DNA from: Planctomycetota bacterium
Lineage (GTDB): Bacteria > Planctomycetota > Planctomycetia > Planctomycetales > Planctomycetaceae
Length of the DNA stretch: 64,000 nt
Direction of reading: 5' to 3'
Assembly (NCBI GenBank): GCA_003388505.1
Contig: QQVO01000007.1
Coordinates: 62,001 to 126,000 of the forward strand
Shown here: piece by piece, positions 3,225 through 51,760 of the stretch
Layout: the number at the start of each line of letters is the position of its first letter
Numbering within the stretch: the stretch's first letter is position 1
Translations under genes and position numbers: made by a program
The notes under the pieces: generated by a model
What the model was told of the DNA's origin: nothing
The model's input: the letters and a program-made list of their open reading frames with translations, nothing else
Databases searched by the model: none

Positions 3225-4217
3225 TCAGTCCCCAGTGCCGATGCGATCAACAATGAACGCCACCGCTGCCTCGTAAGCGGCGTCGATGTCGTCCGGTTCC
3301 GCCCCGGCCAGCCCATGCTCGCCCCCTTCAACCGCGATCAGCCGATGCTCCACCCCATGCTTCTCAAACGCGTCCGCCATGAGCACGGACTGCTCATACG
3401 GCACATCGGTGTCTTCGGTGCCGTGGATCATCAGTGTCGGCGGATAATCCTCCGAGACGTTCAGCAGCGGCATATAAGGGATGAACTCTTCCGGTTCCTC
3501 GTCCGGATCCCAGCCTGTGACGGCCTTGGGCCAGATCCCCTCGCGGCGGCAGAACCGATAGAACGCTCCGCCGTTGCCGTCTCGCTCGCGCGAATCGGAA
3601 ACCGGCGGACCGCTCACCTGCTTCCAGGCGGCCTCCTGGCTGATATCGGTCGCATGCCGCGCATGCGGACTCGGCTCCGACAGCCACGGACCGACGATGT
3701 CCCCATAGCCCCAGAACGCCACCAGCGCCTGCGGTCGCGGCTTGATGAGGTATCCGGTCACCAGCGTGAGGTGACCGCCGGCGGACCCGCCGTGCACCGC
3801 GAGTCGATCCGGGTCGATGCCCAGTTCCGCCGGTCCCTCCTCTCGAATCCACGCAAAGGCGTCCTTGACGTCCTCATGAATGCCGGAGACTTTCGTCTCC
3901 GGCGCAAGCCGGTAGTCGATCGAGATCAGCACGATCCCGCGCTGCAACAGTGCGTCCCTCATCCGCCCGCTCACGCCTTCGCGGTGCCCGTTGATCAGCG
4001 CCCCGCCGTGAATCCAGACCGCCACCGGCCGCGCTGCGTCGGACTTTCCGTCTGGCACGTAAGCATCAAGCTTGATCTCCAGATCGTCGACCGTCTTGTA
4101 GACGTACGTCGACTTCTCGAATTCCCGCTCGGCTGCATTCAGGCAGACCGGCGCGGCGGCGGCAGCGATCAGGGGAACAACGATGAATGGAAACCGCATT
4201 GATGTGTGATGGCTCAT
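3225..4217 (-). CDS. Secreted alpha/beta-hydrolase esterase
   Basis: About 330 residues of BD-FAE/carboxylesterase type. An N-terminal hydrophobic signal (IVVPLIAAAAAP) follows a short basic stretch. The oxyanion motif IHGGA, nucleophile elbow GGSAGG (Ser145), an Asp in HGTEDTDVP and a His in GEHGL (His301) make a complete catalytic triad. Enzymes of this type release acetyl, feruloyl or simple ester groups from polysaccharides or small molecules. No strong ribosome-binding site marks the start; ATGs at 4253, 4217 and 4199 are all possible and 4217 is a compromise. It is upstream of, and in the same direction as, the Gfo/Idh gene. Confidence 0.85.
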   Translation of the reverse strand: MSHHTSMRFPFIVVPLIAAAAAPVCLNAAEREFEKSTYVYKTVDDLEIKLDAYVPDGKSDAARPVAVWIHGGALINGHREGVSGRMRDALLQRGIVLISIDYRLAPETKVSGIHEDVKDAFAWIREEGPAELGIDPDRLAVHGGSAGGHLTLVTGYLIKPRPQALVAFWGYGDIVGPWLSEPSPHARHATDISQEAAWKQVSGPPVSDSRERDGNGGAFYRFCRREGIWPKAVTGWDPDEEPEEFIPYMPLLNVSEDYPPTLMIHGTEDTDVPYEQSVLMADAFEKHGVEHRLIAVEGGEHGLAGAEPDDIDAAYEAAVAFIVDRIGTGD

Positions 4218-5917: not shown

Positions 5918-7081
5918 TCACGCCACCTTCCGCTGATCGTCCGGCGCGGCGGTCGGCAGGCTGCGTCCGGTCAACTCGGCATACACCGCCATCGTGCCGT
6001 CGAGCATGCGACGTCTTGTGAACAGGTCATTCGGCGGGACCACGGCAGGACGATTGAGCAAACCCTGCACGCGCTTTGCGGCGAGGTCCAGGCGGCCGGT
6101 CGGGACCGCTCCCTGCGGGTACAACGCCGAAAGGATCTCGCCGACTCCCGCGTGTGCGTATCCGACGACCGGGATGCCCAGCGTGAGCGCCTCGAGCACC
6201 GTGCGGCCGAAAGCCTCGGGCGGGTTTGCGGAGAGGGAGACGACCACGTCGGACACGCTGTAGATTTCGCGGATGTCCGCCCGGTGGCCGGTCAGCGTGA
6301 CATGGGAATCGAGATTCATCTCGCGGATGAGTTTCTTCAGGCCGGCAGCGTACCGCTCACGCTGCGGTTCGGCGCCCCCGACGATCAGTCCGTGAATGTT
6401 CGAGTCCCGCTTGCGGAGTGCGTCGATCAATCTCAGAAACTGCGGGTGACCTTTCAATCGCGTCAATCGCCCGGGCAGCGTGACGATCCGGCGGCCTGCA
6501 AGGTGCGGATACTGTGAGTGCCATGCCGCCAGCCAGGTCGGCGAGGGCTCATAGCCGCGGGGAAACTCACCCGGATCGACTCCGCGATAAACGACACGGA
6601 TGCGGTCTTCATCGAGTTGTGGATAGTTCTTGAGGAGGTAGTCCCGCACGGTCTGCGAGATGGCGATCACCCGCTCCCCGCGCGTCATGACGGCGCTGAA
6701 GCGGTTCACCGAGTACAGGCCGTGCGCTGTCGTCAGGAAGTGCGGCCTCTCGTCGGCCGGCAGAGTCTTCCATGCCAACCAGGCGACCCACGCCGGGACG
6801 CGCGAGCGGACGTGCACGATGTCGACGTTTTCCCGCCGCATCAGTTGCCGCAGCGGCACGATCCAACGGGCCGTAAGCGGCGACTTCACGCCGATGGAAC
6901 AGTAGATGTGCTCGCTCCCTTCGGCCACGAGGCGCTTCACGAGGCGACCGCCGCCGGAAACGACCAGCGACCGATGGCCCCGAGCCACCAGTTCCGCGCC
7001 GACCTCCAGCGTGCCACGTTCGACGCCCCCGCTCTCCAGCGACGGCAGGACTTGAAGCACTGTGAGTGGAATGTCGTTCAT
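5918..7081 (-). CDS. Glycosyltransferase family 4
   Basis: A 387-residue GT-B enzyme that transfers sugar from an activated donor to a glycan or lipid acceptor on the cytoplasmic side. The N-terminal half begins VLQVLPSLESGGVERGTLE, typical of GT4; the C-terminal half has the donor-site E-x7-E motif (EAFGRTVLEALTLG) at about residue 305. VLVVPGRLTRLKG-like sequence (TLPGRLTRLKGH) marks the linker to the second domain. It is the last gene of a minus-strand group with two 2OG-Fe(II) oxygenases and an ELM1-like protein, which suggests a surface-polysaccharide job. Donor and acceptor are unknown. Confidence 0.9.
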   Translation of the reverse strand: MNDIPLTVLQVLPSLESGGVERGTLEVGAELVARGHRSLVVSGGGRLVKRLVAEGSEHIYCSIGVKSPLTARWIVPLRQLMRRENVDIVHVRSRVPAWVAWLAWKTLPADERPHFLTTAHGLYSVNRFSAVMTRGERVIAISQTVRDYLLKNYPQLDEDRIRVVYRGVDPGEFPRGYEPSPTWLAAWHSQYPHLAGRRIVTLPGRLTRLKGHPQFLRLIDALRKRDSNIHGLIVGGAEPQRERYAAGLKKLIREMNLDSHVTLTGHRADIREIYSVSDVVVSLSANPPEAFGRTVLEALTLGIPVVGYAHAGVGEILSALYPQGAVPTGRLDLAAKRVQGLLNRPAVVPPNDLFTRRRMLDGTMAVYAELTGRSLPTAAPDDQRKVA

Positions 7082-50871: not shown

Positions 50872-50944
50872 GGGAGAGTTGTGAGTGAAGCGCAGCGGCG
50901 GGCGTGATGACGCGGAGATCGGAGGGGAGCGGCTTCTTGTAGTC

Positions 50945-51037
50945 GGGCGTGCAGGGTCGGTCTCACTGGCGTAGCCCGTGGCACCCTGCGCCTGGTTCGG
51001 GACCAGGAGACCGTCGGTTCAAATCCGACCACGCTGA
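50945..51037 (+). tRNA. tRNA-Pro(CGG)-like with abnormal 5' half
   Basis: The 3' half is normal: anticodon stem CCTGG/CCAGG (50991-51007) with loop TTCGGGA (anticodon CGG at 50998-51000), T arm GTCGG, TTCAAAT, CCGAC, and acceptor strand CACGCTG with A discriminator at 51037. The 5' half is not standard. The best acceptor partner I find is GGGCGTG at 50945-50951, which forces a D stem GGGT/ACCC around a loop of about 25 bases that itself resembles an F4 palindrome (CACTGGCGTAG...GTGGCACCC). It may be a pseudo-tRNA. 5' end uncertain. Confidence 0.5.
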
Positions 51038-51048
51038 GTCAACAACAT

Positions 51049-51120
51049 TGCGGTGTGGCCCAATGGTAAGGCAGCTCCCTGTTAAGGAGACGCATGCCGG
51101 TTCGAATCCTGCCACCGCAG
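51049..51120 (+). tRNA. tRNA-Asn(GTT)
   Basis: 72 bases. Acceptor TGCGGTG/CACCGCA pairs perfectly, the D arm is intact, the anticodon loop CTGTTAA gives GTT at 51081-51083, and the T arm is GCCGG, TTCGAAT, CCTGC with one mismatch. Confidence 0.88.
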
Positions 51121-51126
51121 CTCGAT

Positions 51127-51213
51127 GGAAGTCATCCGGCCGGATGAGGAGGCTGTCTTGAAAACAGGTCGGCGAGTTCGCCTCGCTTGTGGGTTCGAGT
51201 CCCACGGCTTCCG
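51127..51213 (+). tRNA. tRNA-Ser(TGA)
   Basis: 87 bases, class II. Acceptor GGAAGTC/GGCTTCC, anticodon loop CTTGAAA with TGA at 51159-51161, a long variable arm with a GGCGAG, TTCG, CCTCGC hairpin, and T arm GTGGG, TTCGAGT, CCCAC. G discriminator as in bacterial tRNA-Ser. Confidence 0.88.
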
Positions 51214-51234
51214 CTGAGAGTGAACCAACAATTG

Positions 51235-51342
51235 GGGCTCATGGTCCAACAGGAAGTCACCGGTGTCGCAAGCCGGAGGACCAATCCAGGCTTGCAAGCC
51301 TGATCGGTGCCCGGGTGCAATTCCCGGTGAGTCCACTCCACA
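51235..51342 (+). tRNA. Abnormal long tRNA-like sequence (Ala-type anticodon)
   Basis: Acceptor GGGCTCA (51235-51241) pairs fully with TGAGTCC (51329-51335) with A next; the T arm is CCGGG, TGCAATT, CCCGG. Between them two anticodon-like arms compete: CCGGT, GTCGCAA, GCCGG (would read CGC) and CAGGCTTGCAAGCCTG, a perfect 16-base palindrome (would read TGC or be a long variable arm). It looks like a class II tRNA with an Ala anticodon or a fusion of two tRNAs. Boundaries approximate. Confidence 0.45.
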
Positions 51343-51343
51343 C

Positions 51344-51415
51344 GATCCCGTGGTCCAGCGGCTACGACTTCTGGCCTACACCCAGACAACGATGGTTCGA
51401 GTCCATCCGGGATCA
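51344..51415 (+). tRNA. tRNA-Val(TAC)-like
   Basis: 72 bases. Acceptor GATCCCG/CGGGATC perfect; D stem GTC/GAC; anticodon stem TCTGG/CCAGA perfect with loop CCTACAC, giving anticodon TAC but C instead of U at position 33; T arm GATGG, TTCGAGT, CCATC. The acceptor sequence is unlike usual bacterial tRNA-Val. Confidence 0.65.
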
Positions 51416-51499
51416 CTCCGGCACAGCCGGTTTGTTCGTGTGAGTCGTCGGAAGCAACGGGAGCTCAGGAAGGCATCACAGTCAAGCCGCCCACGGCGG

Positions 51500-51538
51500 G
51501 CCCAGGTACGCCAACCGGCAGAGCGACTCGGCTTAGAG
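51500..51538 (+). pseudogene. tRNA-Leu(TAG) truncated after the anticodon loop
   Basis: GCCCAGG acceptor strand, TA, D arm CGCCAACCGGCAGAGCG, anticodon stem CTCGG and loop CTTAGAG (anticodon TAG) are tRNA-Leu-like. The 3' stem should be CCGAG, but the sequence continues CGCTTTGCAG, the inverted end of the F5 repeat. No variable, T or acceptor 3' strand follows. Confidence 0.55.
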
Positions 51539-51716
51539 CGCTTTGCAGTTCGGTCTGTGGCCCCGGGAACGATCCGTTCTTGATTCGCGGAGGCAAGATC
51601 GCCAATAGCTATTAGCGACCTCTTGACCCTCGGCTCTTGACCCGCCACTTCGCCGGAGATGGCGAACTCCAGCCAACCTGCCCCCTGAGCACAAACACAG
51701 TTCTGCAAAGCGCTAT
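51535..51716. repeat. F5-related element with inverted ends
   Basis: Ends AGCGCTTTGCAGTTC (from 51537) and CTGCAAAGCGCTATC (to about 51717) are inverted copies of the F5 terminus. The interior contains TCTTGACCCTCGGCTCTTGA-type sequence. No reading frame of note. Confidence 0.55.
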
Positions 51717-51760
51717 CAACGGGACGTGTGAAACGAGGCGACATTCTTGAGACGGCGCAC

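Follow-up and report, generated by a model that had tools for sequence, protein, structure and literature searches.

A planctomycete tRNA gene run as a probable decaying fragment of a reserve tRNA array, and an attenuator-like leader before its intact relatives

Degenerate tRNA gene clusters, with many partly degraded tRNAs and an Ile(UAU) gene among their members, were reported in 2016 from many planctomycete genomes, according to the accessible sections of that account (PMC4807772). The arrays described here resemble those clusters in their many partly degraded tRNAs and in the gene for Ile(tat), which is present in several of them; conserved gene order, a leader or attenuator, a C33 pattern and a short tRNA-Leu do not figure in those sections. 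The trn operon of Anabaena PCC 7120 is a long array of spare tRNAs beside the housekeeping tRNAs, normally silent and induced by translation-targeting antibiotics, but the accessible part of its description places control with a repressor, TrcR, acting at the promoter (PMC10272220). Dense tRNA array units, often with HNH endonuclease genes, are known from Mycobacterium, phages and plasmids; these have other hosts, and the part of the paper at hand describes no leader switch for them (PMC5966550). One Nostoc plasmid array (L175) has an adjacent HNH gene, as some planctomycete array loci do, but a different gene order; our leader model (R1, see below) has no match in it, and as R1 was built from planctomycetes the Nostoc array may have a different leader. 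What is already known is thus the existence of the planctomycete clusters (2016), and what is apparently new is the attenuator-like leader of the intact arrays, in so far as a literature search limited to open-licence papers turned up no description of a leader or attenuator in front of such arrays.

The window, a stretch of 64,000 nucleotides (62001-126000 of contig C9) from a planctomycete genome of 6.8 Mb in 78 contigs, contains five and a half tRNA-like units on the plus strand at 50972-51535, recognised by ARAGORN, the Rfam tRNA model and homology, in agreement with the five to six units counted in a first-pass annotation. The run lies between a redoxin-type ORF upstream and a DUF1501 ORF downstream (the DUF1501, PSD1 and PSCyt genes point to a planctomycete), and no integrase or phage gene was found among the four adjacent ORFs searched, as had also been noted from the sequence.

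Two of the units, Asn(GTT) (51049-51121, plus strand, Rfam 53.3 bits) and the class II Ser(TGA) (51127-51214, plus strand), are called by ARAGORN and look intact, in line with their earlier description as clean; the former is 98.6% identical to the Asn of two arrays in other genomes (L043 of G015 and L105 of G070), and the latter 92% identical to an array Ser(TGA) in L042. The Val(TAC) unit (51344-51416, plus strand; ARAGORN; Rfam 55.3 bits) does have the C at position 33 that had been pointed out, and this C33 is inherited, because it is common to the Val genes of the two arrays that match it at 98.6-98.7% (L039 of G030 and L045 of G032). The remaining units are damaged. The Pro(CGG) remnant (50972-51037, plus strand, Rfam 36.1 bits) had been credited with a normal 3' half and a 5' half foldable only with an oversized D loop: its 3' part is indeed an array Pro, the blast match covering only the 3' 48 nt (50989-51036, 89.6% to L099 and to the own-genome array L038), and the 5' third is without homology to array Pro(CGG) genes and counts as lost. 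The scores for the Rfam tRNA model (gathering score 29) are uneven, Asn and Val being well above Pro and Ala (35.4 bits for the latter), and the scored units of the window range from 35.4 to 55.3 bits against 55.1-71.5 bits for their housekeeping counterparts.

The unit that starts at 51235 had been described as having two competing anticodon-type arms. It is an array Ala(CGC) gene (51235-51335, plus strand, Rfam 35.4 bits and alignment with array Ala genes), and the supposed second arm is a 30-nt hairpin inserted in the variable loop (51279-51308, plus strand). This insertion falls in a gap in eight of the nine other array Ala genes aligned (alignment A5); the ninth, an Ala(TGC) on contig C19 of the same genome, has a shorter insertion of its own. 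Allo-tRNAs are characterised by unusual acceptor and T-stem lengths together with a long variable arm. The total length of about 100 nt and the long hairpin in the variable region are what one would expect of such a class II tRNA with a recoding function, but the body of the unit aligns with array Ala(CGC) with a single 30-nt gap (outside the insertion it is 93% and 100% identical to the Ala of the own-genome array on contig C30), and its acceptor stem of 7 bp and T stem of 5 bp are of ordinary length. We therefore reject the comparison with allo-tRNAs, which we regard as hardly credible. A spaced pattern of the insertion matches the genome at the window site only, which speaks against an exact repeat. 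Insertions with the same ends (GACCA...GGTGCCC) and differing stems occur, once in the window (in the Ala unit, variable loop, 51279-51315), in four of 951 array tRNAs and in none of 43 housekeeping tRNAs. Those outside the window (L037 6922-7014, L038 11935-12027, L109 2857-2951 and L143 1138-1233) also sit in variable loops, of several kinds of array tRNA, and these hairpins may represent a small recurring insert. Apart from Leu, Ser and Tyr, 12 of 755 array tRNAs reach at least 84 nt.

The last unit is the 5' half of an array Leu(TAA) gene (51500-51535, plus strand), 88-94% identical to the 5' halves of array Leu units from the C30 array and from other genera, the matches running up to ...CGGCTTA at 51535. 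It had been read as a Leu(TAG) gene that stops after its anticodon loop. The truncation is real and falls within the anticodon loop, but TAG is an artefact, because the sequence 3' of 51535 belongs to a dispersed repeat; from the aligned arrays, that on C30 included, the ancestral anticodon is read as TAA. The repeat that ends the array (about 51536-51714, plus strand) is MITE-like, with 23-nt terminal inverted repeats (51537-51559 and 51692-51714, 78% complementary) and at least 27 further copies in the genome.

A DNA search with window positions 50940-51760 as query gave matches in 22 of 59 genomes, the source genome included, some of them weak, as well as in further places of the source genome. 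Of 20 stretches taken from these matches, seven (L037-L043) contain 12 to 39 ARAGORN tRNA genes behind a leader, and the other 13 contain 1 to 17. The longest arrays share largely one order, which starts Phe-Glu-Pro-Pro-Ile-Lys-Ile-Lys-Thr-Gly-Pro(CGG)-Asn-Ser(CGA)-Gly-Asn-Gln-Gln-Ser(TGA)-Ala-Val(TAC)-Leu(TAA) and goes on with Leu(TAG)-Asp-Leu-Tyr-Glu-Leu-Met-Leu-Val-Thr-Ala-Ala-Ser-Arg..., later with His, Trp, Thr, Arg and Cys. The order in the window, Pro(CGG)-Asn(GTT)-Ser(TGA)-Ala(CGC)-Val(TAC)-Leu(TAA), follows this shared order except that the genes between Asn and Ser(TGA) are missing, and the run is thus more than a chance assembly, since its units follow one another as they do in arrays of other genomes. 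A tRNA array unit is understood to have at least 20 tRNA genes at high density; the two arrays of genome G030 (L039 and L040), with 39 tRNA genes each, are of this kind and the window fragment is not, whereas L037-L043 and, by its matching order, the window fragment all belong with the degenerate planctomycete clusters.

The source genome has further arrays, one on contig C30 (L037, 21 genes) and one at the contig end of C19 (L038, 26 genes); a piece on contig C67 (L057) carries Trp, Thr, Arg and Cys, and we infer that the C19 and C67 pieces join. The C19 array (L038 10960-11090) is without Ser(TGA), Ala(CGC), Val(TAC) and Leu(TAA), units that the window keeps (Leu in part). In another array (L098 2031-2102), ARAGORN calls a tRNA with anticodon TTA, which reads the stop codon UAA; it lies between Pro(CGG) and Ser(CGA), the place of Asn(GTT) in other arrays. 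HNH genes were considered as a constant part of the arrays and were found in only 14 of 61 array loci (the query's own included; many loci are incomplete at their ends). A 230-aa protein encoded inside the L039 array (6220-6912) has relatives or pieces in 8 of the 61 loci, itself included, and no match in Pfam, NCBIfam or PADLOC.

Compared with the longer arrays, the window run is without internal genes, without the leader (the best R1 score in the window is 10.2 bits, which is no match) and without one end, and its last gene is interrupted by the MITE-like element. At the level of sequence it is therefore demonstrably a fragment, homologous to and syntenic with longer arrays, and it is most simply read as a decaying remnant. 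A different reading would make it a working mini-set, in which transcription running on from the redoxin gene yields Asn, Ser, Val and perhaps Ala, with its enlarged variable arm, as additions to the tRNA pool. The good state of Asn, Ser and Val, all called by ARAGORN (with 53-55 bits in Rfam for Asn and Val), would suit such a role, as would the absence of Ser(TGA), Ala(CGC), Val(TAC) and Leu(TAA), among other units, from the genome's own C19 array. We nevertheless find it unlikely, because there is no R1-type leader, because Pro, Ala and Leu are damaged, and because higher-scoring housekeeping genes cover every identity: comparison with the full tRNA set of the genome, which had been proposed as a check, finds Asn(GTT), Ser(TGA), Pro(CGG), Ala(CGC), Val(TAC) and Leu(TAA) all present. 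Our preferred reading, which we consider quite probable, is that the window run is a piece of a planctomycete reserve tRNA array, in decay and probably no longer functional; the parent arrays would be a silent spare set under transcription attenuation.

This last proposal comes from the region 5' of the first tRNA of the intact arrays. There we find a promoter-like motif, G(C/T)GAAC-N16-GCGTCTA, then a short ORF, then a hairpin resembling an intrinsic terminator. The motif, which we take to resemble ECF sigma promoters, was seen in most of 15 arrays inspected. A covariance model (R1) was built from 12 aligned leaders, starting two codons before the stop codon of the ORF and with the terminator alone set as paired. 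Of 397 genomes of the class, 151 have an R1 match, and these represent 76 of 185 genera; in a phylum-wide draw R1 matches 36 of 392 genomes, 28 from the same class and eight from outside it, the latter weakly (best score per genome 30.5-33.9 bits). An exact leader pattern was found in seven genome-collection records, all labelled as planctomycete MAGs, including Fuerstiella, Isosphaeraceae and one labelled Candidatus Kuenenia, which we take to be a planctomycete. No Rfam family matches the leader region of the C30 array (L037 5400-5825) up to an E value of 1.

The distribution of R1 relative to tRNA genes was examined in 79 loci (the 24 best-scoring with duplicates dropped, 40 chosen for spread and 15 from earlier), of which 77 have a match at E up to 1e-6, 65 of these not having been used to build the model. 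Downstream of these 65 matches a tRNA gene lies on the same strand in 61 cases (within 200 nt in 52), and two or more tRNAs in 60; upstream, within the stretches examined, there is none (0/65). The four without a downstream tRNA are L126, whose stretch ends 147 nt after the match, and L141, L145 and L146, where neither ARAGORN (in 4 kb) nor Rfam finds one. In L145 (801-2991) the array-type leader precedes, by about 940 nt, a gene for EF-Tu instead of tRNAs; in L146 it leads to other ORFs; and in L141 it is followed by a lone array-type ORF (3369-3896) with 44% identity to an ORF in the C30 array (L037 7976-8350), neither protein having an NCBIfam match. Two loci that carry arrays, L052 and L054, give no full R1 match. 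The promoter-like motif, which was read off the first loci and then counted, is present upstream of 67 of the 77 matches (55 of the 65 non-training ones) and in 45 of 945 control stretches.

The ORF in the leader is a putative translated frame. A stop codon is at the same place in 77/77 matches (73 TGA and 4 TAA); as R1 favours TGA, the open frame is the more independent evidence. The frame is open for at least 30 codons in 76 of the 77, against 33 and 29 for the other two frames, and in 64 of the 65 non-training matches, against 28 and 25. With the start codon chosen by rule, 76/77 have an ATG-started ORF of 16-83 codons, preceded by a purine-rich motif in 32 of the 76. Constraint on the peptide is weak: over 12 pairs, pN/pS is 0.73 for the ORF frame, compared with 0.79 and 0.94 when read out of frame. 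Classical leader-peptide attenuators carry runs of one codon. Such runs (of the trp or his type) are not seen in these leader ORFs, and adjacent identical residues number 190, against 226.6 +/- 14 in shuffles. We also considered a peptide designed to cover all 20 amino acids, as those of L139 and L111 do (20/20), and rejected it as not clearly above chance overall: the number of distinct residues per leader is 15.63, against 15.33 for the leaders' own pooled composition (P 0.04), 15.37 for real protein windows (P 0.08) and 15.81 for proteome composition (P 0.87).

Three segments of the leader can pair in two ways. Segment 1 (GUGACACCGG), which contains the stop codon of the ORF, can pair with segment 2 (CCCGGUGUCAC), or segment 2 can pair with segment 3 (GACACCGGGC) in the terminator, so that the array leader, and not the window, has two mutually exclusive helices of antiterminator and terminator type. 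The 2-3 helix is paired in 98.6% of cells over the 77 sequences, with 23 double-change cells against 3.5 in shuffles. For the 1-2 helix 93.8% of cells are paired, against 17-54% in slid controls, and 13 are double-change cells, against 4.7 in shuffles (0/500 as high); the shuffles do not remove the relatedness among leaders, two of five measures lie within them (double-change pairs were reached by 67/500 and pair types by 169/500), and there is no covariation excess on the 12 training sequences alone. Segment 1 pairs more tightly with its cognate segment 2 than with a swapped one: the mean is -17.36 kcal/mol for cognate and -16.03 kcal/mol for swapped pairs (permutation P 0.0002), and the cognate pair is the tighter in 57 of the 77. 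Among the four leaders that end in TAA (L053, L137, L139 and L149), three have a C to U change in segment 2 that restores the 1-2 pair; in the fourth the partner is an A, unpaired. Both helices are supported by compensatory changes.

It might be argued that the hairpin simply terminates the upstream gene, as a terminator close to a promoter may do, and that segment 1 is complementary only because of repeats. This we regard as improbable: the hairpin sits 3' of both the promoter-like motif and the ORF, at a median of 32 nt after the stop codon, and in the three leaders with TGA to TAA and C to U the paired changes keep the 1-2 pair, while the terminator pair merely becomes U-G.

To us the leader looks like an attenuator that would switch on the array if ribosomes do not complete the leader. 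The distance from the end of the stop codon to the terminator (median 32 nt, range 24-39) is such that a terminating ribosome may cover segment 1 and not segment 2. A ribosome that finishes the ORF would thereby leave segments 2 and 3 to form the terminator, and the array would be off; a ribosome that stalls or fails anywhere in the leader would allow segments 1 and 2 to pair, no terminator would form and the array would be transcribed. Because there is no run of one amino acid, the leader would sense translation in general, and the lack of runs, the chance-level diversity and the weak constraint are most simply read as meaning that any leader failure may turn the array on. A close parallel is toiL, the leader ORF for topAI, which senses several classes of ribosome antibiotics; according to the available part of its description it too is a short ORF whose translation state selects the RNA structure, and a stall anywhere in it would act, but it governs translation and Rho termination of a toxin-antitoxin operon, whereas here an intrinsic terminator would stand before tRNA genes (PMC12121999).

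The tRNAs of the arrays are themselves unusual. We compared 951 clustered tRNAs of the 77 loci with 43 housekeeping tRNAs; the array identities are predicted, as ARAGORN assigns them by anticodon only and misses strongly decayed genes. U33 is absent from 92 of the 951 and from none of the 43, and the departures gather in particular isoacceptors, Leu(GAG) (14/19), Glu(CTC) (10/16) and Thr(CGT) (14/28), with none in Lys(TTT) (0/43) or Asn(GTT) (0/47). The tRNA-Leu of the arrays is at most 79 nt long in 88 of 105 cases (TAA 21/21, TAG 24/24, GAG 17/19, CAA 19/21, CAG 7/20), against 82-88 nt for five housekeeping tRNA-Leu; array tRNA-Ser exceeds 79 nt in 71 of 73. These oddities, C33 in particular isoacceptors and Leu mostly without a long variable arm, are recurring, non-random and inherited in part. 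The Nostoc plasmid array contains a 75-nt tRNA-Leu(TAA) (L175 8076-8150), so the short tRNA-Leu is not confined to planctomycetes. The choice originally offered for the window, between a decaying array and a set of specialised tRNAs, need not be made in that form: both apply, at different levels, as the window copy decays and belongs to an array family with recurring oddities.

One could still hold that the parent arrays are dispensable cargo, horizontally spread or phage-derived, without a regulated role, and that the leader is an ordinary promoter followed by a terminator. Many array tRNAs are degraded and the content differs between copies, the clusters are called often acquired by transfer and perhaps dispensable in the accessible text of PMC4807772, and for the window Asn, Ser and Val units the best matches (up to 98.6-98.7%) lie in arrays of other genera and outside the source genome, although for Ala, Pro and Leu an array of the source genome gives the best match or ties for it. 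The best phage and plasmid DNA matches to the L039 array cover 6% and 4% of the query, and among the matches listed there are short ones alone, one or two tRNAs long. Against this stand the two mutually exclusive helices, each with compensatory changes, the frame that stays open up to its stop codon in segment 1, and tRNA oddities that recur and are not scattered; we think this explanation rather unlikely, if the least so of the alternatives.

We return, then, to regulated arrays. The parent arrays would be a normally silent spare tRNA set which, once on, might replace cleaved tRNAs or feed stalled ribosomes, as the parallel with the trn operon of Anabaena suggests. For phage tRNAs whose anticodon loops are altered, resistance to tRNA-cleaving enzymes has been proposed in the accessible part of PMC10264068, and because of this analogy we suggest that the C33 tRNAs may be spares of the same kind. 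Taken further, and offered as a tentative proposal in which our confidence is limited, many members of the class may have a stress-inducible second translation kit, consisting of arrays of altered tRNAs (C33, Leu without the long arm) that would resist tRNA-cleaving enzymes, sometimes with HNH genes, unnamed ORFs or, in one case, an EF-Tu gene, and held off by a general translation sensor with the leader stop codon in the antiterminator.

The window copy matters little by itself, except as a plain example of such an array in decay. Arrays of tRNA genes are long known and what they are for is largely unsettled, a question that a widespread candidate switch with covariation support makes testable. 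If our reading is true, the array leader would be a general translation-stress sensor, and many members of a bacterial class would keep a spare set of tRNAs under one such sensor of stalled ribosomes.
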